Origin: Ignavibacteriales bacterium
GTDB taxonomy: Bacteria; Bacteroidota; Ignavibacteria; T3Sed10-11
Length of the DNA stretch: 53,160 nt
NCBI GenBank assembly: GCA_003562775.1
Contig: PWTU01000450.1
Span: 1-53,160, forward strand
Direction of reading: 5' to 3'
In this document: piece after piece, positions 5,987 to 37,631 of the stretch
How the letters are laid out: the number at the start of each line of letters is the position of its first letter
How positions within the stretch are numbered: position 1 is the first letter of the stretch
Position numbers and translations under genes: made by a program
Notes under the pieces: generated by a model
The model's input: the letters and a program-made list of their open reading frames with translations, nothing else
Database searches by the model: none
Told to the model about the DNA's origin: nothing

Positions 5987-6923
5987 CACAATACACATAC
6001 CGTTTATTAAAATGTCTGCCGCGGGGAACGATTTTGTTCTCATCGATGAAATACATACCGGCAATAAAATAAAAAATTATAATCTTTTTGCGCAAAAAGT
6101 ATGTAATCGACGTCTCGGTATCGGAGCAGACGGACTACTGGTATATAAATCTCACAACGAGCTGCCGTTTGAAATGGTATATTATAATTCGGACGGTTCC
6201 ACCGGCGGCATGTGCGGAAACGGCGCACGTTGTATCTCTGCATATTATTTCGATGTTTATGGAAAAAATGAAACAACCGTACAATTTAAAGCTTTTGGTA
6301 AAATTTACTCTGCGTCTTCCGACGGTAAAATAATAACTCTGTCAATGCAAAACCCGACCCAATTATTAACGGATCTGGCTATCAATGTCGAGGGAGTTGA
6401 TATATCGTGCAACTTCATCGATACAGGTTCACCACATACCGTTTTATTTTTCGTAGATATAAAAAACCAATATTCAGGCAAAACATTTGAGAGTTTCGAC
6501 ATACATACACTCGGCAGACAAATCAGACTACATGAAGCATTCAAGCCATTGGGGACAAATGTTAATTTTGTTGAGATAGTAACCGATACTCAAATCCGCG
6601 TGCGAACATATGAACGTGGCGTTGAAGAGGAAACGTTCTCTTGCGGAACAGGTTCTATAGCTTCTGCCATCCTTGCAGCGCTTCGTTTTAAGTGTCAACC
6701 ACCGATACAGGTCCACACACGAAGCGGAGAAAAACTTATAGTCGATTTCAAGGGCAATTTAATCAATCATGAAATTATGCAAGTATCACTTGCCGGTACA
6801 TGGATATTCCATTACACCGGATCGGTCTTTATTTCCGAAAAAGAAGATATAGCAGGATCAAGACACATACCCGATTTTGCAATCGCCGCATTATATTCAC
6901 AAACAATTCAAAGGAGCCGGTAA
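5970..6923 (+). CDS. dapF: Diaminopimelate epimerase with C-terminal tail
   Basis: Converts LL- to meso-diaminopimelate for lysine and peptidoglycan synthesis in the cytosol. Both catalytic cysteines are present: Cys82 in MCGNGARC and Cys225 in FSCGTGS. The N-terminus (FIKMSAAGNDFVLID) is that of the family. The ATG start is preferred over a TTG three codons upstream. At 317 residues it is longer than the usual 270-285, because about 30 charged residues follow the last family strand (WIFHYTGSVFI). The gene starts inside the end of the DUF3108 gene, and its TAA stop shares one base with the ATG of the lipid kinase gene. Confidence 0.94.
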   Translation: MSISNNTIHIPFIKMSAAGNDFVLIDEIHTGNKIKNYNLFAQKVCNRRLGIGADGLLVYKSHNELPFEMVYYNSDGSTGGMCGNGARCISAYYFDVYGKNETTVQFKAFGKIYSASSDGKIITLSMQNPTQLLTDLAINVEGVDISCNFIDTGSPHTVLFFVDIKNQYSGKTFESFDIHTLGRQIRLHEAFKPLGTNVNFVEIVTDTQIRVRTYERGVEEETFSCGTGSIASAILAALRFKCQPPIQVHTRSGEKLIVDFKGNLINHEIMQVSLAGTWIFHYTGSVFISEKEDIAGSRHIPDFAIAALYSQTIQRSR

Positions 6924-7825
6924 TGGAAACATATTCTTTTATCATCAATCCGATGGCAGGAAAGGGTAGAGGTAAAAAACTTTTTCATACGCTTGAATCA
7001 TTAATTCGCCGGCATTTTCCGGATTCCGAGATTATTCTGACCGAACGAAGGATGCATGCATTTGAACTTGCATCAGAGAGAAAAAATAATTCCGGTAGTA
7101 CGGTCATAGCCGTTGGAGGCGATGGAACGGTTAACGAAGTCGGGAACGGCTTGATTGGCGGGAATGCAGTTATGAGCGTTATTCCAATAGGTTCCGGCAA
7201 TGACTTTGTGAAAATGTTCGGGATTCCAACCGATATTACAAAAGCAGTTGAGAAAATAAAACACGGGACTATTCGTGATTCTGATGCAGGATTTGTGACT
7301 ATTAATGCTGTCGATGGAAATGAAACAAAACGATATTTTCTTAACGGCATCGGAATCGGATTTGATGCTGCAGTAGCAAATCAAACTACAAAGTTCAAAC
7401 ATTTGCGCGGCGTGAGTCTCTATGCTTTTTCTGTTGCCGTTGTTTTGTTTAATTATAAAACTCCGAATATGATGATGTCGATGAACGGCGCTATAATGAA
7501 CGGAGAGCATTTTTTAATTGCAATCGGCAATGGGAAATGTGCCGGCGGCGGTTTCTATCTCACGCCGGAAGCGGAAATCGACGACGGTTTGCTCGACGTA
7601 TGTTTAGTTGACAATGTGAGTATCCCTCAGGTTGTAAAAATATTTCCAAAAGTTATGAAGGGGAAACATAAAGGCCATAACAAAGTACATTTTTACCGTA
7701 CCGATGCGTTACGCATTGAAACAAAAGGAGAAATTATGGTGCACGCCGACGGCGAAGTGCTTGCAACGCAGGCGCGTGATATTAACATAGAAGTTGTACC
7801 GAAAGCACTGAAGGTCCTGGCTTAG
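6923..7825 (+). CDS. YegS/DgkB-type diacylglycerol or lipid kinase
   Basis: A 300-residue cytosolic kinase of the DAGK catalytic family, which phosphorylates diacylglycerol or a related lipid with ATP. The hallmarks are NPMAGKGRG near residue 10, the nucleotide loop GGDGTVNEVGNG at 65-76, and PIGSGNDF at 88-95. The ATG overlaps the dapF stop by one base and has AAGGAG upstream. Recycling of diacylglycerol released in membrane or envelope lipid turnover is the likely role. The true lipid substrate is not shown by the sequence. Confidence 0.92.
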   Translation: METYSFIINPMAGKGRGKKLFHTLESLIRRHFPDSEIILTERRMHAFELASERKNNSGSTVIAVGGDGTVNEVGNGLIGGNAVMSVIPIGSGNDFVKMFGIPTDITKAVEKIKHGTIRDSDAGFVTINAVDGNETKRYFLNGIGIGFDAAVANQTTKFKHLRGVSLYAFSVAVVLFNYKTPNMMMSMNGAIMNGEHFLIAIGNGKCAGGGFYLTPEAEIDDGLLDVCLVDNVSIPQVVKIFPKVMKGKHKGHNKVHFYRTDALRIETKGEIMVHADGEVLATQARDINIEVVPKALKVLA

Positions 7826-7834
7826 TTGATAAAT

Positions 7835-8263
7835 ATGAGAAAAAATACTGATCGTCGCACGGTCATAAATCGCCTGTTAGTCATCTGGACGGCCATTACA
7901 TCCATACCATTTATTTCAGCTATAATCTATTTTATTTATCCTCCGTCAAAAAAATTTGTCGGATCAAAAGTTTTAGGAAGCGTAGATACTCTACAGCCAA
8001 ATACGGGAAGAGTCGTACAATTAGGCGAGCAACCGGTTATCGTGATTACTTTAGACAGGGGGGAGACTATAGCATACGGAGCAAATTGTACTCATCTTGG
8101 TTGTGTTGTCGGATTTCGGAAAGAAAGAGGAGATATATATTGCGCGTGCCACGGGAGTTCGTTCGATCTTCAAGGGCATCCGGTATCCGGACCCGCACAA
8201 CGCCCGCTTGAAAAAATTCCTGTTAAAATCGAGAACGATCAAGTAATTATTTATACTGTATAA
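7835..8263 (+). CDS. Rieske iron-sulfur protein of a cytochrome bc complex
   Basis: A 142-residue membrane-anchored 2Fe-2S protein that takes an electron from quinol. The N-terminus has a twin-arginine-like DRRTVINRLL and one membrane segment (about 14-34). The cluster ligands are Cys85 and His87 in CTHLGC and Cys103 and His106 in CACHGSSF; Cys90 and Cys105 would form the usual disulfide. An ATG is chosen over a TTG three codons upstream; the Shine-Dalgarno sequence is weak for both. The cytochrome b gene follows after 26 bases, so the two encode one complex. Confidence 0.95.
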   Translation: MRKNTDRRTVINRLLVIWTAITSIPFISAIIYFIYPPSKKFVGSKVLGSVDTLQPNTGRVVQLGEQPVIVITLDRGETIAYGANCTHLGCVVGFRKERGDIYCACHGSSFDLQGHPVSGPAQRPLEKIPVKIENDQVIIYTV

Positions 8264-25740: not shown

Positions 25741-28095
25741 TTAAAATAATACCTGATACGACACCCTGATGTTGCGTCCCGGCTGCGGTGCGACGTCTTT
25801 CACGCGCGATAAATGATCACGCCAGACAGCATCGGCGGCGTTTTCAATATTTAAAGTTATCGAATGTAACAATTTATACTGCATCCACCGGTATCCGATT
25901 CCTGCACCCAACAAATTATACGAAGGTGTCGGTAATTGCGGTTTAATGGTCTCATCCTGATTCAAAGGGTCTGGAATTGGCAACGGCACTCTATTCTGAG
26001 ATGCTGCAGCGGTGTATCCGACCGATGCGAAAAACCTCTTCCCTTCATATCGAAGGTTGATATTTCCGTTTAACGGGGGGATGAACGGTAAAGGATCGTC
26101 GTCTATGGTTCTTGTTGCATGAACATAGCTGGCCGTCGCATCGATAACGATATTATTCCATATTATGAATTCGAGTTTACCTTCAGCACCGTAAAAGACC
26201 GCATTATCGCTCCTTGCCTGAAATACCGGATACCGGCGCAAACGGGGATCTATTTCTCCTGTTGGTTCATAGTAGATGTAATTTGAAACGAAATTATAGA
26301 ACAGATTGAAATCCGTTTTCAGACGGGTCGATTCACCACGAAGAAAGAGGTCGACACCCGTACCAATTTCCGCATCGAGTTCCGGATTCCCAATATCGAA
26401 TGAAAAATCGGCAAGATGAGGACCGTCGGAATAAAGTTCTTCGATTGCAGGATGTCTGAATGCTCGTGATGTACTTATACCGATCTTCCAGCCGGGTGCT
26501 AAATTGTAGAGAAAAGCAAGCGATCCCGAAAAAGCATTAAAAGTGCGGTCCGATACCGGAATCAACCTTTCACCCGAACGAATAGGATCTTTCCGGTAAG
26601 GTTCTATGACTGTCCGGTCGTACCGTATGCCCAACTGAAATCGCAGTGACCGATAAGCGAATTCTTCAAATGCGTATATAGATGCAACGGTCTCCGTTGC
26701 CGAACGCGTACCCGTAAAACCCCGGACTGAACGCAAATCACGGTACCTGAACGAAATTCCTGCAGCACCTTCGGTCCGGATATCTCCATTGTAGTGAATA
26801 TGACGGGCTACAAGACTGACGCTCGAAGAGAGCTGATCGAACTCTGCCCCGATAATTGGACGGCCATCTACGGTTTCTCCCTCAATCTCAAGATGGTTAT
26901 AGCGGGTAATATGAGCGTCAAGTTCTATATCACTGAACCACCCTATTCCGTCATAATGGATAGCTTTAAGGCGGCCGACCCTTCTGATGAATTCAACATT
27001 AACTCCTCCGGTATGCGCACCAGGTATCAATTCACCATCAAACTCACCCGGTACCCCGTATCTCATTTCGTATTGACGGTACGATGTGCCGATATACCCC
27101 CAATCCATAATCCGGCTGATGCCTGCGCTGACGTTATACCCGTCTAATCCGGTAGACGGCAACGTTCCCTTCGGAGTACGAATATTGCCGGCTGTGCGTG
27201 CACTCGCATCACCGCGTATTGAGAATGAACCCATCGGTATGTTTATCATACCGCCTCCACTGTATCCATCGTTATAGGATTCTCCCCGGATAGCAATTGT
27301 CCCGGTTATACGGTCCGGAAGGTTGCGCGGAATTTCTTCACGGATTACATTTATTACTCCTCCGAGTGCATTACTGCCGTATAACAATCCGGCAGGTCCC
27401 CGGATTACTTCTATTCTCTCGGTCGTTACAGGTTCAATCGCTACGGCGTGATCGGCTGCTGTGGTAGAAAGGTCGCCGGTCCGTTGCCCGTCTTCAAGTA
27501 CAAGAACACGGTCGCCCCCCATTCCCCGTATCACCGGTTGTGTTGCGGCAGCACCGAAGGATTGTTGTGCAATACCGGGAAGATGAACAAGCGAAGCCGG
27601 CAGAGTCCCCTGCATTTTTCTTTGTAGTTCCAACCCGCCCAAAACACTTGTCGGTTGGTAGGCCTCGGATACACCGCGCTCCCGCCCGGTACCGGTAACG
27701 ACCACAGATTCAGAGATTTCAAAAACCGAAGGTATAAGGTCAACTGCTATATGAACGGTATCGTCAGTGGTTACTTCCACTTCCTTTTCAACCGGAGTAT
27801 ACCCGATATGCTGAATTGTAACGGTATAATTGCGCACCGGCATATTATCAAATTGAAATGTACCATCTTCACGCGATATCCTGTATCGTCCTGTATCTTT
27901 AAGCCGTATATTTGCAAAAAGGATCGGTTCACCGGTTTCGATATCCCGGACAACTCCATGAATGGCCCCGTAATCCCGCTGGAGATATGGTGGTGAAGTA
28001 TAGCTATCTTCTCCTCCATAACCGGCAACCGTTAAAAAAACAGCAAGAGAAAGCAATATGAATATATGTTTTCTCATATTGTGTTTGAACCTCAT
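25741..28095 (-). CDS. TonB-dependent receptor with N-terminal carboxypeptidase-regulatory-like domain
   Basis: A 784-residue outer membrane receptor. After the signal peptide a CarboxypepD_reg-like beta-sandwich is seen (AIHGVVRDIETGEPILFANI, about 45-120). The plug follows, with the segment SVVVTGTGRERG and the VIRGPAGLLYGSNALGGVINV region, and then a long barrel ending in VSYQVLF. The plug segment with ADHAVAIEPVTTERIEVI resembles ZnuD-like metal receptors. Two close Met starts exist (codons 1 and 7); the Shine-Dalgarno evidence is indecisive. Neighbours with Cys and His motifs support a metal or metal-chelate substrate. The match is an inference. Confidence 0.9.
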   Translation of the reverse strand: MRFKHNMRKHIFILLSLAVFLTVAGYGGEDSYTSPPYLQRDYGAIHGVVRDIETGEPILFANIRLKDTGRYRISREDGTFQFDNMPVRNYTVTIQHIGYTPVEKEVEVTTDDTVHIAVDLIPSVFEISESVVVTGTGRERGVSEAYQPTSVLGGLELQRKMQGTLPASLVHLPGIAQQSFGAAATQPVIRGMGGDRVLVLEDGQRTGDLSTTAADHAVAIEPVTTERIEVIRGPAGLLYGSNALGGVINVIREEIPRNLPDRITGTIAIRGESYNDGYSGGGMINIPMGSFSIRGDASARTAGNIRTPKGTLPSTGLDGYNVSAGISRIMDWGYIGTSYRQYEMRYGVPGEFDGELIPGAHTGGVNVEFIRRVGRLKAIHYDGIGWFSDIELDAHITRYNHLEIEGETVDGRPIIGAEFDQLSSSVSLVARHIHYNGDIRTEGAAGISFRYRDLRSVRGFTGTRSATETVASIYAFEEFAYRSLRFQLGIRYDRTVIEPYRKDPIRSGERLIPVSDRTFNAFSGSLAFLYNLAPGWKIGISTSRAFRHPAIEELYSDGPHLADFSFDIGNPELDAEIGTGVDLFLRGESTRLKTDFNLFYNFVSNYIYYEPTGEIDPRLRRYPVFQARSDNAVFYGAEGKLEFIIWNNIVIDATASYVHATRTIDDDPLPFIPPLNGNINLRYEGKRFFASVGYTAAASQNRVPLPIPDPLNQDETIKPQLPTPSYNLLGAGIGYRWMQYKLLHSITLNIENAADAVWRDHLSRVKDVAPQPGRNIRVSYQVLF

Positions 28096-28150
28096 TTCAG
28101 TATGTATAAAATTTATGAACCTGCACTGGTATATCAGGCCGGTTCATATA

Positions 28151-28516
28151 TTAGGAATATTTTTTTAGGAAAAATCGGGCAAGGTAAGGTGGTGAACGGG
28201 GTTCGGTAAACAACAGATAATCTTCACTGCGAAACGATATAGTGTTCTCCGGAGTTACCTCATCAAGTAGAATAATGTTTGTTACTTGTAATTTCTCACA
28301 ATCAATAGTTGAGGATGTTGTGATGCGCGCGCAATGTATACAATAATGATTGTCGGCAAGGTTGGGGTGATTTGCGTGGTCATTGCAATGATGACTATTG
28401 AGATATACGGTTGGATCATTGCTGAAATTGTATGGCTCTTCTTTATGGTGGTGAAATGCACCACCCATATTAAATAATAGTAAAACCGACAGCAGGTATG
28501 TTAGTTTCCTATCCAT
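28151..28516 (-). CDS. Small exported His/Cys protein upstream of the TonB receptor
   Basis: A 121-residue protein with a signal peptide (YLLSVLLLFNMGGAF) and then a dense His/Cys region: FHHHKEEP, HHCNDHANHP and NHYCIHC. The second half is beta-rich with one more Cys (TIDCEKL) and an end rich in Phe, Leu and Lys. The layout (signal, CxxC-type cluster, beta part, aromatic end) is like the small protein at the head of the efflux operon, but the sequences differ. I do not recognise a family. Its place in the metal cluster suggests a periplasmic metal-binding part. Confidence 0.72.
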   Translation of the reverse strand: MDRKLTYLLSVLLLFNMGGAFHHHKEEPYNFSNDPTVYLNSHHCNDHANHPNLADNHYCIHCARITTSSTIDCEKLQVTNIILLDEVTPENTISFRSEDYLLFTEPRSPPYLARFFLKKYS

Positions 28517-28559
28517 ACGTCCGTTGTTATTGAAAATGTTTATATAGCTATAAAACTAT

Positions 28560-28582
28560 GCCGGAACCGATTAAGTTCCGGC
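28560..28582. terminator. Stem-loop between the MerP-like and the small His/Cys genes
   Basis: GCCGGAAC pairs perfectly with GTTCCGGC around a 7-base loop, 13 bases after the MerP-like stop. On the minus strand it is followed by ATAGTTTTAT, a weak U-run, so it may act as a leaky terminator. Confidence 0.6.
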
Positions 28583-28594
28583 AAGAAAGATTAT

Positions 28595-28951
28595 TTACCG
28601 GCAACAATCAGGCAGTGTTGCATAAACAGTTTCGTCACGCTTGGTGTCATTCGCGTGATAACCGGCTGCTGCAATAGCTTCTTCAATTTCTTTTAAGGTG
28701 GTAATCTCTGCGTTGTAGCTTACCGTACCAATTTTATTGTCGAAATCTACCCGCATACCTTCAACTCCTTCTACCTTTGCAACAGCTTGCTGAACTGTTG
28801 CAACACACATCTGACATTTAAGGGTTTCCATTTTGATGGTATCTGTGGCAAATTCGATAGTAGGAATTTCTTCGGTCTGTTCACCGTTGCCACAACCTAT
28901 AAAGAGAAAGAATCCCAGTACTATGGGGATAAATGAAAAAAAATTACGCAT
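28595..28951 (-). CDS. MerP-like HMA-domain lipoprotein
   Basis: A 118-residue lipoprotein with a heavy-metal-associated (HMA) domain. The lipobox is FIGC (Cys20). The metal-binding pair is in TLKCQMCVATVQQAV (CxxC). The domain follows the usual beta-alpha-beta-beta-alpha-beta order with GYHAND at the end, and the tail carries an extra Cys-Cys in PDCCR. It is first in the minus-strand cluster leading to the TonB receptor. It probably passes soft metal ions, such as Cu, Zn or Hg, at the periplasmic face of a membrane. Confidence 0.9.
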   Translation of the reverse strand: MRNFFSFIPIVLGFFLFIGCGNGEQTEEIPTIEFATDTIKMETLKCQMCVATVQQAVAKVEGVEGMRVDFDNKIGTVSYNAEITTLKEIEEAIAAAGYHANDTKRDETVYATLPDCCR

Positions 28952-29189
28952 GTTATAAATGTCTCCTAATGGTTTTAAAATACTATATGATGTAAGTTCT
29001 ACAGAGATTCAAATATTTCTCTCTAAGGAAAAAATAGATAATGAACTCGAAAATGTAACATTGAAAAATTATCTTTGGTTCCATGGAATTTAGACAATTT
29101 TGTTGAATTTAATACATCTTTTCTGTTATCTTAATAATAATGGATTTTTAATGATAATAAATAAAAGGATTAACGAAAGGTTCTGCAGC

Positions 29190-33096: not shown

Positions 33097-33827
33097 ACAA
33101 CACCCATATACGTAGATACAATGGAATAAAATGCAATTGTCGGAAGAAGAGCTGCAACAATTACCATCAGCGTGGTTGTTAACACGACCTTCATTCTTTC
33201 CGAAAGGATTTTCAACCCTATTATTAGCAAAACTATCGACCAAACGATAAGTACTGAATCAAGGCCGATCACCATACTATATACTACCGGATTCAGTGAA
33301 AATGGAGACGGTTCATTCGTAAACAGATACATACCGAATATCCCGACTTCCACCGGGAATATAAATAACACCGACAGGATAATTGGAAAACTCGAATACG
33401 ATACAACAGCGCGTATATCCCGAAAATTTATCGACGATCTATACAGACGCAGGCAAACCGACACAACCATCGAGAGGAACATAATGACAACGATACCCGC
33501 AACCGGACCGAGCAAGATGATGAGCAACAATATGACCTGTAAATTATCTATCAACAATCCTATATTCGACAGCCAGAAAAGCAATGCGACATAAGCAAAA
33601 CCGAAAAGCATTTGAATCGGAAATACGTAATTTTTTTGCTGTGCAATAATTATACGCTGCATTGCGGTCGCCGGTGATTCGATTAAGAGCCACAATGTTT
33701 CAAACAAATGAAGCGATGCAATCCGGTCTCTGAGATAACCGCCGCATGACCGGCAGGTTATTATCAGCGAAGGATTTTCGGTTTTACAGACCGGACAAAT
33801 AGTTTTATTGTAATTCTTTTTACTCAT
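33093..33827 (-). CDS. Zinc-ribbon, Yip1-like multi-span membrane protein
   Basis: A 244-residue protein with an N-terminal zinc ribbon (CPVCKTENPS then CRSCGGYL) and five or so membrane helices, in the pattern of Yip1-domain proteins. Function is unknown. The start overlaps the tryptophanase stop by four bases, and its own end overlaps the zincin start, which suggests that the three genes are translated together. Confidence 0.85.
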   Translation of the reverse strand: MSKKNYNKTICPVCKTENPSLIITCRSCGGYLRDRIASLHLFETLWLLIESPATAMQRIIIAQQKNYVFPIQMLFGFAYVALLFWLSNIGLLIDNLQVILLLIILLGPVAGIVVIMFLSMVVSVCLRLYRSSINFRDIRAVVSYSSFPIILSVLFIFPVEVGIFGMYLFTNEPSPFSLNPVVYSMVIGLDSVLIVWSIVLLIIGLKILSERMKVVLTTTLMVIVAALLPTIAFYSIVSTYMGVV

Positions 33828-35203
33828 GTAATCGGTTCGAATCTTGCCGTAAAATGACGAAGCATAGGTGCCTCATATACGATATTGTACCCTTTCAAAG
33901 ATTCACGGCCTTTGTACATTTCGATAATAACTTCAACCACATAGTCAATGTGACTTTGCGTATAAACCCGTCTCGGTATTGCAAGCCGGACAAGTTCCAT
34001 CGTTGCGGGGATAAAATTACCTGTTTTTTTGTCTGTTTTTCCGAACATAACACTGCCGATTTCTACCGCCCGTATTCCACCGAACCGGTATAATTCACAG
34101 ACAATGGATTGACCGGGAAATTTTTCCGGTGGAATATGCGGGGTAAATCCTCTGGCATTTAAATAAATAGCGTGGCCACCAGGCGGCCGGAGAATCGGTA
34201 CCCCGGCATCCATCAGCTTTTCCCCGAGATATTCAGTAGAACGTAAACGGTATCTTAAATAATGTTCGTCTACAACCTCAACGAATCCCTGTGCAATCGC
34301 TTCGAGATCCCGTCCGGACAATCCGCCGTATGTTGGAAATCCCTCGGTTACGATTAATATATTTCGAGCCGACTGTGCAAGGTTCTCATCGTTCATCGCA
34401 AGAAAACCACCCATGTTAACCAGCGCATCTTTTTTTGCGCTCATAGTACATCCATCGGCAAGCGAAAACATCTCCTGTGCAATTTCCTTGACCGATTTAT
34501 CTGCATACCCTTCTTCACGAAGCTTGATAAAGTATGAATTCTCTGCAAACCTGCACGCATCCAGGAAAAACGGTATATTATATTTTTTTAAAACATTCTT
34601 CACGGCACGCAGGTTTTCCATCGATACCGGCTGCCCGCCGCCCGCATTGTTTGTTACGGTCATCATACCGATCGGTATATTTTCCGGACCCCGCTCCTTG
34701 ATGAATTTCTCCAATTTTTCGATATCCATGTTTCCTTTAAATGGATGCAGTGAATCCGGATCTTTTCCCTCATCGATAACAAGGTCAATTGCCTCGGCGC
34801 CCGAATATTCGATATTAGCACGGGTAGTATCGAAGTGTGTATTATTAGGAACGAATTTTCCCGCACCACCTAAAATAGTGAATAGTATTTTTTCAGCAGC
34901 TCTCCCCTGGTGTGTCGGAATTATATATTTATAACCTGTTATGTCGCGAACGGCCGATTCAAACTTATAAAAACTACGTGCCCCTGCATACGATTCATCA
35001 CCGTCCATAATCCCAGCCCACTGTTTTGCACTCATCGCAGCGGTGCCGCTGTCGGTTAACAGGTCGATGAGCACATCATCTGCAAGAATCATAAAGGGAT
35101 TATAGCCGGCATCCTGTAAAATACGCTCACGTTCTTCCGTAGTGGTGAAACGAATCGGTTCAACTGATTTGATTCTGAAGGGTTCAATTATTGTTTTCAT
35201 CAT
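33824..35203 (-). CDS. tnaA: Tryptophanase / beta-eliminating lyase
   Basis: A 459-residue PLP enzyme that breaks L-tryptophan to indole, pyruvate and ammonia, or tyrosine to phenol in a close relative. The PLP lysine is in MSAKKDALVNMGG. Comparison with E. coli TnaA and Citrobacter tyrosine phenol-lyase gives the two residues that set specificity: HFDTTRAN has Asp where tyrosine phenol-lyase has Thr124, and RAVEIGSVM has Ile where it has Arg381. Both agree with tryptophanase. The first residues (EPFRIKSVEP) are nearer to the tyrosine enzyme. A leading Met pair exists; the first is kept. It heads a unit with two overlapping genes. Confidence 0.9.
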   Translation of the reverse strand: MMKTIIEPFRIKSVEPIRFTTTEERERILQDAGYNPFMILADDVLIDLLTDSGTAAMSAKQWAGIMDGDESYAGARSFYKFESAVRDITGYKYIIPTHQGRAAEKILFTILGGAGKFVPNNTHFDTTRANIEYSGAEAIDLVIDEGKDPDSLHPFKGNMDIEKLEKFIKERGPENIPIGMMTVTNNAGGGQPVSMENLRAVKNVLKKYNIPFFLDACRFAENSYFIKLREEGYADKSVKEIAQEMFSLADGCTMSAKKDALVNMGGFLAMNDENLAQSARNILIVTEGFPTYGGLSGRDLEAIAQGFVEVVDEHYLRYRLRSTEYLGEKLMDAGVPILRPPGGHAIYLNARGFTPHIPPEKFPGQSIVCELYRFGGIRAVEIGSVMFGKTDKKTGNFIPATMELVRLAIPRRVYTQSHIDYVVEVIIEMYKGRESLKGYNIVYEAPMLRHFTARFEPIT

Positions 35204-35293: not shown

Positions 35294-35758
35294 ATGTACG
35301 ATAAACCGATTCAGGATTATTACGATAACGATGTAAGTCAGTGTTATGGCTGCGGATATTCAAATACGCATGGGCATCAAATAAAAACCCATTGGGACGG
35401 CAAGAAATCGGTTACCCGGTTCTTACCAAAGACATACCACACGGCAATACCCGGCTACGTATACGGGGGATTGATAGCATCACTGATCGATTGTCACGGC
35501 ACCGGAACTGCCGCCGCAGCGATGGCTGAAAAACGAGGCATGGATCTAACAACCACGAACGCCCCCCGATTCGTAACGGCATCGCTTCAGGTCAGCTATT
35601 TAAAACCAACCCCTACCGACACAGAGTTGACACTAACTGGCAAAGTGAGAGAAATTACAGAAAGAAAGGTAATTGTAGATATCCAGCTCTCGGCCAATAC
35701 TACGGTCTGCGCCGAAGGGACCGTCATTAGCGTGGAAATGCGCCCTCAGCAGAAATAA
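35294..35758 (+). CDS. PaaI-type hotdog thioesterase
   Basis: A 154-residue hotdog-fold protein predicted to hydrolyse acyl-CoA thioesters. Family elements are CYGCGYSNTHG near the N-terminus, a catalytic-region segment IPGYVYGGLIASLIDCHGTG and the C-terminal strands that end in VISVEMRP. It is oriented away from the tryptophanase gene. Its substrate could be phenylacetyl- or another aryl-CoA, but the sequence does not settle this. Confidence 0.88.
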   Translation: MYDKPIQDYYDNDVSQCYGCGYSNTHGHQIKTHWDGKKSVTRFLPKTYHTAIPGYVYGGLIASLIDCHGTGTAAAAMAEKRGMDLTTTNAPRFVTASLQVSYLKPTPTDTELTLTGKVREITERKVIVDIQLSANTTVCAEGTVISVEMRPQQK

Positions 35759-35841
35759 TTTGAATTTTTGGAAACTTAAATAGTCCGGTACATTGTTATA
35801 GTTTCATACGTTAACATCTCAAATTCAATAGGGAGGAAAAA

Positions 35842-36198
35842 ATGAGATATTATACTTCTTTACTTTCGATTGTAGCAATCACATTTTTACTCATTGGTTG
35901 CGCCCCGCCCGAAGAAGAACCCGATCTCACCGCAAATCAAAAAATCGAACAAATCAATGATTGGCTCCCCGATATAAAAATGGAGCTTGCGATGGAAGGA
36001 GAATACGCCTGTTGTTTGAGTGAAGGATGTAATGAATGTTTGCTTGCTCATGGCAGTTGTCCGTGCTACAATAATCTCACTGAGGGTAAACCGGTATGCG
36101 GCGAATGCTATGCCGGCTGGCAATTAGGAAGAGGGATTGATAACGACTTTACGAAAGAAGACGTAAAACTGGATACCGACCATCATCACGAACATTGA
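35842..36198 (+). CDS. Cys-rich lipoprotein of unknown function
   Basis: A 118-residue lipoprotein (lipobox IGC, Cys20). The middle has eleven or so cysteines: YACCLSEGCNECLLAHGSCP, CPCYNNLTEG and KPVCGECYAGW, and the tail ends with HHHEH. GGGAGG precedes the ATG by six bases. I do not recognise the family. The motif spacing hints at metal or heme binding. It is followed 48 bases on by another Cys-rich gene, and both lie between a thioesterase and miaA. Confidence 0.72.
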   Translation: MRYYTSLLSIVAITFLLIGCAPPEEEPDLTANQKIEQINDWLPDIKMELAMEGEYACCLSEGCNECLLAHGSCPCYNNLTEGKPVCGECYAGWQLGRGIDNDFTKEDVKLDTDHHHEH

Positions 36199-36246
36199 TT
36201 ACGACCTAATCACCGTATGTATAACTAATCTACAGAGGAGTGCTTT

Positions 36247-36633
36247 ATGAGAAATATTATTATTCCATCTGCAATCGTGTTGATAATCACAGCGGTTGCA
36301 TTGTCATTCGGAGTGTTCACCGGTGACAGCCAAACAGCAGTTGTTAAAAGTACGGAAAAAGAATGTGTGAGGGCTGAAGTTGTCGCATCCGGAAATGAAT
36401 GTGGTGACAAAGTCCGCGCGACCATGGCTTCCGGAAAGAAAGAGTGCGGAACGTCAACAACTGCAGCGAAAGTCTCAAAGTCTATCGAATGCCCTCACAG
36501 TGGCGTAGTATTAAAAGCCGAAAGTGAGAAAAAATCCTGTGGAGAAAAATCAACCGCAGTGCACGCATCGGCAGAAAAAGCAGACAAAGATGAACCGTGT
36601 TGTGACAAACATGCGATGGCGCTTGCAGATTAA
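36247..36633 (+). CDS. Exported Cys-repeat protein of unknown function
   Basis: A 128-residue protein with an N-terminal hydrophobic helix (IPSAIVLIITAVALSF) and then six short repeats, each with a Cys: KECVRAEVVASG, NECGDKVRATMASG, KECGTSTTAA, IECPHSGVV, KSCGEKSTA and EPCCDKHAM. The repeat unit is about 15-19 residues. AGAGGAG lies nine bases before the ATG. It is a good candidate for a periplasmic metal- or thiol-handling protein, but this is an inference. No homolog is known to me. Confidence 0.72.
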   Translation: MRNIIIPSAIVLIITAVALSFGVFTGDSQTAVVKSTEKECVRAEVVASGNECGDKVRATMASGKKECGTSTTAAKVSKSIECPHSGVVLKAESEKKSCGEKSTAVHASAEKADKDEPCCDKHAMALAD

Positions 36634-36654
36634 TCAGCTGTAGCAAGTAACGTT

Positions 36655-36698
36655 AACAGGGGCATATCGATATTTATCGAAACGCCCCTGTTATTTTA
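36655..36698 (+). terminator. Rho-independent terminator shared by convergent genes
   Basis: AACAGGGGC pairs with GCCCCTGTT around a loop of about 20 bases and is followed by ATTTTAT on the plus strand. It lies 22 bases after the Cys-repeat stop; the T-run overlaps the miaA stop codon. Confidence 0.8.
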
Positions 36699-37631
36699 TA
36701 GATTTTTGGTATGGTACGTGATTATTTCACGAGCGGCGGTTTTCAGATCGTCATCAGATCGGACGGTAATCCAGCGAATCCGTTTTTCTTTCCCGAACCA
36801 CGTCATCTGACGTTTCGCAAATCGGCGGGTATTTTGTTTTATCCGGTCAATTAATTCTTCCCTGTTAATTCTCCCCTCATGATATTCGATAGTCTCGGCA
36901 TATCCTACAGATTGAAGTGATTGAGAAAATTTTGAATACCCCTGTTCAAGCAAGGTTTGTACTTCGTCAATTAAACCGTTTTCGATCATTTTGTCGACGC
37001 GCCGGTCAATTCGGTTGTATAATACTCCCCTATCCCACTCCAAACCGAACCAGAGGACCTTATACGGCAACGGATCATTTGATTTTTGTTCGAGTTCGCC
37101 GCGGGTCATACCGGTCATATAGTAAATTTCAAGTGCACGCATAACACGACGCGGGTTTTTTAAATCAATCAACTCCGCTCCACCCGGATCAATCCTCCGT
37201 AATTCCTCTACAAGTTTCTTCAAACCGTCCTTTTCAAATCGAGCTGCAATACGTTGACGTAATTCATCGTCTACCTCGGGAACATCGATTATGCCGTCGA
37301 CCATAGCTTTAATGTAAAGTCCCGTACCCCCGACTACAAAAGGAATACGATCTTGTTTAAAAATTTCATCTATTTTTCGTCTCGATTCTCTTGCATACTT
37401 TCCGGCGTTCCAAATTTTATCAGGTTCGAGCATGTCAACAAAATGATGCGGTACTGCACGTAAATCTTGTATCTCCGGCTTAGCCGTGCCTATGTCCATA
37501 TATTTATAAATTTGGCGTGAATCGGCGGAAATAATCTCAACCGGGAGTTCTGAAGCAACATGCAGCGCCGTTTGAGATTTACCCGATGCAGTGGGAGATG
37601 ATAATATGAGTACTGTTTTGCTGCCTGACAT
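36696..37631 (-). CDS. miaA: tRNA dimethylallyltransferase
   Basis: A 311-residue enzyme that adds the dimethylallyl group to A37 of tRNAs that read UNN codons. The P-loop is SSPTASGKSQTAL near the N-terminus, and SADSRQIYKYMDIGTAKP follows. The catalytic and DMAPP-binding elements (PFVVGGTGLYI, KNPRRVMRALEI) and the C-terminal KQMTWFGKEK are present. It begins nine bases after the pcm stop. Confidence 0.95.
   Translation of the reverse strand: MSGSKTVLILSSPTASGKSQTALHVASELPVEIISADSRQIYKYMDIGTAKPEIQDLRAVPHHFVDMLEPDKIWNAGKYARESRRKIDEIFKQDRIPFVVGGTGLYIKAMVDGIIDVPEVDDELRQRIAARFEKDGLKKLVEELRRIDPGGAELIDLKNPRRVMRALEIYYMTGMTRGELEQKSNDPLPYKVLWFGLEWDRGVLYNRIDRRVDKMIENGLIDEVQTLLEQGYSKFSQSLQSVGYAETIEYHEGRINREELIDRIKQNTRRFAKRQMTWFGKEKRIRWITVRSDDDLKTAAREIITYHTKNL

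Follow-up and report, generated by a model that had tools for sequence, protein, structure and literature searches.

What do two small, adjacent, Cys-rich proteins with predicted export signals do for the cell that encodes them? We address this question for a gene pair in the genome of an Ignavibacteriales bacterium, within a window (the whole stretch of DNA analysed) of 53,160 nucleotides.

Organization of the gene pair

The two genes lie between a thioesterase gene and a convergent gene that we take, from sequence knowledge, to be miaA. Features of the locus, with the evidence for each in brackets, are as follows.

35294..35758, + strand, hotdog-fold thioesterase, directly upstream; left border of the cassette (PF03061, 5e-8)
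35831..35836, + strand, ribosome binding site GGGAGG of the lipoprotein gene (sequence)
35842..36198, + strand, lipoprotein with eight-Cys domain, 118 aa (ORF; conservation in the genus; pN well below pS)
35842..35901, + strand, predicted lipoprotein signal peptide and lipobox LIGC, with C20 as the lipidated Cys (sequence; C20 invariant in alignment A1)
36004..36135, + strand, region of the Cys8 core, Y-x-C-C-x4-C-x2-C-x6-C-x-C-x10-C-x2-C-x2-G-W-x3-G-x-G (alignment of 18 diverse members)
36181..36195, + strand, His-rich C-terminal tail HHHEH (alignment A5)
36235..36240, + strand, ribosome binding site GAGGAG of the Cys-repeat gene (sequence)
36247..36633, + strand, exported Cys-repeat protein, 128 aa, 7 Cys, C-terminus CCDKHAMALAD (ORF; genus alignment)
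36654..36693, + strand, terminator-like hairpin 3' of the pair, shared with convergent miaA (RNA fold -23.7 kcal/mol, z -5.15)
36696..37631, - strand, presumed miaA (tRNA dimethylallyltransferase), right border of the cassette (sequence, conserved synteny)

An earlier note on this DNA, made from the sequence alone, had described two adjacent exported Cys-rich genes 48 bases apart, with good ribosome binding sites and a strong terminator at their end. Both ORFs, their order, the 48-bp gap, and the two binding sites were confirmed, and the terminator corresponds to the hairpin listed above, which is absent from the list produced by a simple consensus terminator scan.

The first protein carries the signal peptide and lipobox Cys of a bacterial lipoprotein (MRYYTSLLSIVAITFLLIGC), and C20 is invariant across the genus and in relative L005. 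The compact Cys order and HHHEH tail noted previously are both seen in the 118-aa sequence, but the count of about eleven Cys was too high. There are nine: C20 in the lipobox and eight (C57, C58, C63, C66, C73, C75, C86, and C89) packed into a 44-residue core N-terminal to the tail. An H-x-H end is common to closer members of the Cys8 family, and H94 and H96 of the mature protein are invariant across the 10 rows of alignment A5. Copies in three other genomes of the genus share 74–81% identity with the window lipoprotein. The core sequence contains no CxxCH heme motif, so we rejected a c-type heme role.

The second protein begins with a hydrophobic helix and has seven Cys, separated by gaps of 12, 15, 15, 16, 20, and 1. 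The earlier description, a signal helix followed by six Cys-bearing repeats of 15–19 residues, held for the helix but needs correction for the repeats, as the Cys number seven and most gaps are 15–16 residues. Taken by itself, the window copy showed only weak repeat regularity (225 of 5000 shuffles had an equally good 15-residue periodicity), but the regularity was clear in two genus relatives, G005 and G002 (4 and 0 of 5000 shuffles as good, respectively), whose copies have one extra repeat unit relative to the window copy. All seven Cys are invariant in the four genus members, each a species, while repeat number differs. Profile and single-sequence searches gave no credible relatives outside the genus; two matches there (E 0.003–0.005) fell inside a long ORF or across stops and were judged to be chance.

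Conservation and linkage within the genus

Profile and single-sequence searches of genus genomes recovered both genes in G002, G003, and G005. The pair is thereby known from three genomes besides that of the window and is jointly present in four out of six. In G004, where the site is otherwise intact, the thioesterase and miaA ends are separated by 73 bp that contain neither gene, compared with 937 bp enclosing both genes in the window. The remaining genome, G001, yielded neither pair gene nor the thioesterase and is only 68% complete, and we consider it uninformative. The two genes have therefore been gained or lost as a unit, and this is the strongest argument for their acting together. Completeness of the window's genome is 85% and contamination 7%; we note that the same gene order occurs in other genus genomes, which argues that the contig truly belongs to it.

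Across comparisons with the three other genus genomes, pN was 0.09–0.17 for the lipoprotein and 0.17–0.26 for the Cys-repeat protein, compared with a pS of 0.57–0.89, and synonymous change between copies of both genes is near saturation. Judged by these ratios, both genes are under purifying selection and are not chance ORFs.

A tryptophanase/tyrosine-phenol-lyase-type gene (33824–35203, - strand) is divergent to the cassette's thioesterase. This lyase adjoins the thioesterase in G004 even without the pair, so its neighbourhood is independent of the pair, and we set aside a link between them. In G005, a short-chain dehydrogenase gene separates lyase and thioesterase, and in G002 such a gene lies on the upstream side of the thioesterase (loci L062 and L064); the corresponding site in the window and in G004 has none. 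Such varying placement among genus genomes indicates that the intergenic region changes content repeatedly.

A Cys8 family found mainly in Ignavibacteria

The core of the lipoprotein follows the pattern Y-x-C-C-x4-C-x2-C ... C-x-C ... C-x-[DE]-C-x2-G-[WY] ... G-x-G. Eight Cys and three Gly of this core are invariant in 18 diverse members, and the residues between the Cys are variable. The window lipoprotein belongs to the family, having the eight invariant Cys and the C-x2-G-[WY] ... G-x-G end in the A1 and A2 profiles and the alignment.

A five-member profile matched 30 out of 391 genomes of the class Ignavibacteria and, in a phylum-wide sample, 4 out of 396 genomes, all within the class. The broader core profile added one marginal phylum match (E 9.5e-4, 27 positions) with an in-frame stop. 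Scanning DNA for the pattern with a narrower alignment gave eight loci, every one from a record titled Ignavibacteria, Ignavibacteriae, Ignavibacteriales, or Bacteroidetes. Plasmids gave no match.

Library searches were largely empty. Pfam gave no family for either window protein at E up to 1, the sole NCBIfam match was PsbQ at chance level (E 0.17), and searches with the Cys8 core alignment and both protein families against Pfam, NCBIfam, and PDB gave nothing convincing. Zinc-finger repeats topped the PDB matches, but these were short, chance-level fits to the CxxCxxG stretch. We found no description of the domain in open-access literature, where absence proves little. Profile searches of both proteins likewise returned no well-described family with another role. 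By sequence search, the eight-Cys domain is uncatalogued in curated libraries and occurs mainly in Ignavibacteria. The earlier view of a pair resembling no known system is borne out for these libraries but not for the genomic context of the family.

Association with heavy-metal handling

CusB-type adaptors and P1B ATPases carry HMBD (PF19335), a module that binds heavy metals. An HMBD motif occurs in the same chain as the Cys8 domain in 20 out of 36 relatives, as a separate N-terminal domain, and HMA occurs in two out of 36; Pfam matches bear this out for L046 and L050 (HMBD) and for L056 (HMA). Genes neighbouring Cys8 genes include CusA/CzcA (TIGR00914), a copper-translocating ATPase (TIGR01511), and MerA (TIGR02053), all above curated cut-offs, as well as a CusB-like adaptor.

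These neighbours were far more frequent around the family than elsewhere. By tblastn, a CusA, CusB, copper-ATPase, or MerA gene was present in 18 out of 34 family loci and one out of 40 control loci (Fisher p 4e-7), where several family loci are closely related, so that the p value overstates their independence, and the query pumps were drawn from family loci, which somewhat favours the family side. Family loci totalled 334 kb and control loci 348 kb, the latter largely from the same genomes and often on short contigs. The difference is nevertheless large despite this sampling bias. The field of function guessed in the earlier note, metal, was thus rightly chosen for the family. Its proposal of a metal- or thiol-storage pair stands halfway, with storage as the part that is still only putative: fusions to HMBD and HMA and the Cus, copper-ATPase, and MerA neighbours speak for metal, and joint presence and absence within one genus speaks for a pair.

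The window itself differs from this family pattern. Pfam found neither HMBD nor HMA in the window lipoprotein, and the immediate neighbours of the pair (thioesterase, tryptophanase-like lyase, and miaA) count against a metal reading. The nearest metal-type gene encodes an HMA-domain lipoprotein (28595–29008), about 7 kb away. It stands in a row (25741–29008, - strand) with a small His/Cys-bearing exported protein and a TonB-dependent receptor, possibly a cluster for copper uptake or handling. At the left window edge (1–2626, - strand), a CusB-type adaptor with two HMBD stretches accompanies an outer membrane efflux protein (CusB/CusC-like); a partnering pump gene would fall outside the window.

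A sulfur-linked sister clade

In a maximum likelihood tree of the cores, the window's genus (100/100) falls within a clade of 28 rows (96/91), 20 of them with HMBD. Because the genus sits inside this HMBD-rich clade, HMBD was probably lost there. We note that the tree derives from a short core and supports the clade, not the exact branch, of the window's genus. Midpoint rooting was used for drawing only, and the tree gives no relative age of clades.

Six other relatives, all without HMBD, form a well-supported clade (99/93). For three of these (L065, L044, and L048), the Cys8 gene immediately follows a tyrosine-phenol-lyase/tryptophanase-type gene and adjoins a rhodanese gene; two others (L060 and L074) have it beside cysteine synthase and ThiF-rhodanese genes. 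The lyase-type gene was found in zero out of 40 control loci. The L048 copy of this upstream lyase gene (6619–7883, - strand) is split between two reading frames (two HSPs), through a frameshift or an assembly error. This gene context suggests that the non-HMBD clade is a sulfur-linked branch of the Cys8 family, one that is left unexplained by a pure metal-resistance reading.

Alternative explanations

The eight Cys could pair as four disulfides that stabilise a small exported domain of structural function unrelated to metals, its association with HMBD and efflux genes being incidental. Both proteins are predicted to be exported to a place where Cys are often oxidised, so their Cys may be disulfide-bonded, and an even Cys number with variable residues in between would suit such a domain. 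However, 22 out of 36 relatives have a heavy-metal-binding module in the same chain, family loci are strongly enriched in metal pump and MerA genes, and CC, CxxC, and CxC spacings resemble thiolate metal sites. Disulfides would also leave the conserved H-x-H tail unexplained, and we regard this explanation as unlikely, though not far-fetched. A structural role could instead involve zinc or an iron-sulfur cluster in some non-resistance function, such as the docking of a different envelope protein. Two Zn(Cys)4 sites could be formed by the eight Cys of this short, dense core, but zinc-finger-like structure matches were short and at chance level and the family context is one of efflux and detoxification; we consider this proposal quite improbable.

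The Cys cluster might also carry or sense sulfane sulfur or sulfide, with metal linkage as one use among others. The clade of six includes loci with cysteine synthase, ThiF/rhodanese, or lyase and rhodanese genes, the pair in the window's genus is also near a tryptophanase-type lyase, and two genus members (G002 and G003) come from Cock Soda Lake sediment (CSSed) MAGs (PMC6704655). Nevertheless, the window's genus falls in the other, HMBD-rich clade, and the lyase of G004 keeps its place without the pair. A sulfur-handling role is accordingly improbable in our judgement.

Proposed role and comparison with known systems

On balance, we think that the two genes form a cassette that handles soft metals in the cell envelope, a reading that we favour with some reservation. 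We infer that metal is bound, which metal it is, that the Cys are thiolates and not disulfides, and that the two proteins cooperate. Lipidated Cys20 would anchor the lipoprotein in the envelope, where the eight-Cys domain and His tail may bind Cu(I)/Ag(I)-type, perhaps Hg(II), ions via thiolates. In relatives, Cys8 joined to HMBD or HMA modules would work beside Cus-type efflux pumps and copper ATPases. The window's genus would, along with the probable loss of HMBD, have added a second exported protein of variable Cys repeats of about 15 residues, probably an extra binding sink or exchange partner that adds capacity. As this protein is confined to the genus, its metal role is argued from association and composition only. 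Lipoprotein and partner would probably trap soft metal ions jointly.

Envelope copper handling by proteins adjoining CusCBA and CopA is established (PMC7558416). Periplasmic copper chaperones such as CusF resemble the window proteins in that both would act in the envelope beside CusCBA and CopA, but CusF, a barrel of five strands, relies on His/Met/Trp (PMC7558416), whereas Cys dominates here. Copper storage proteins (Csp1) are likewise Cys-lined copper sinks, some of them exported (PMC12510493). Csps form rigid bundles of four helices (PMC7558416); AlphaFold2 models of the window proteins contained no bundle of this kind, though the models were poor (mean pLDDT 61 with 10 sequences and 38 with three), and neither protein matched a curated Csp model in Pfam or NCBIfam. 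Bacterial metallothioneins (SmtA and MymT) are also small and Cys-dense, with metal-thiolate sites expected, but the window lipoprotein is predicted to be exported and lipid-anchored, its fixed eight-Cys core is foreign to the metallothioneins in PMC7558416, and no curated metallothionein family in Pfam or NCBIfam matched the window proteins. There is also a likeness in context to HMBD, a short Cys/His/Met metal module of the same resistance loci that is fused to many Cys8 relatives. The Cys8 core pattern is distinct, however, with no HMBD match.

Exported metal-binding accessory proteins are a known kind; the Cys8 family and its genus-specific partner are new to curated libraries. The finding concerns an exported, metal-resistance-linked domain missing from those libraries, in a lineage of which few members have been cultured, and fusions and gene context give this domain a testable role. 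The split between metal-linked and sulfur-linked clades offers a way to ask how a Cys cluster switches duties, and repeat expansion may have given rise to a metal sink in the case of the Cys-repeat protein specific to this genus. More tentatively, and as a possibility that we would not yet back, Cys8 may be a thiolate module of metal-detoxification and sulfur-transfer loci to which one genus has added a newly evolved, repeat-expanding Cys protein, giving a two-protein envelope metal sink.
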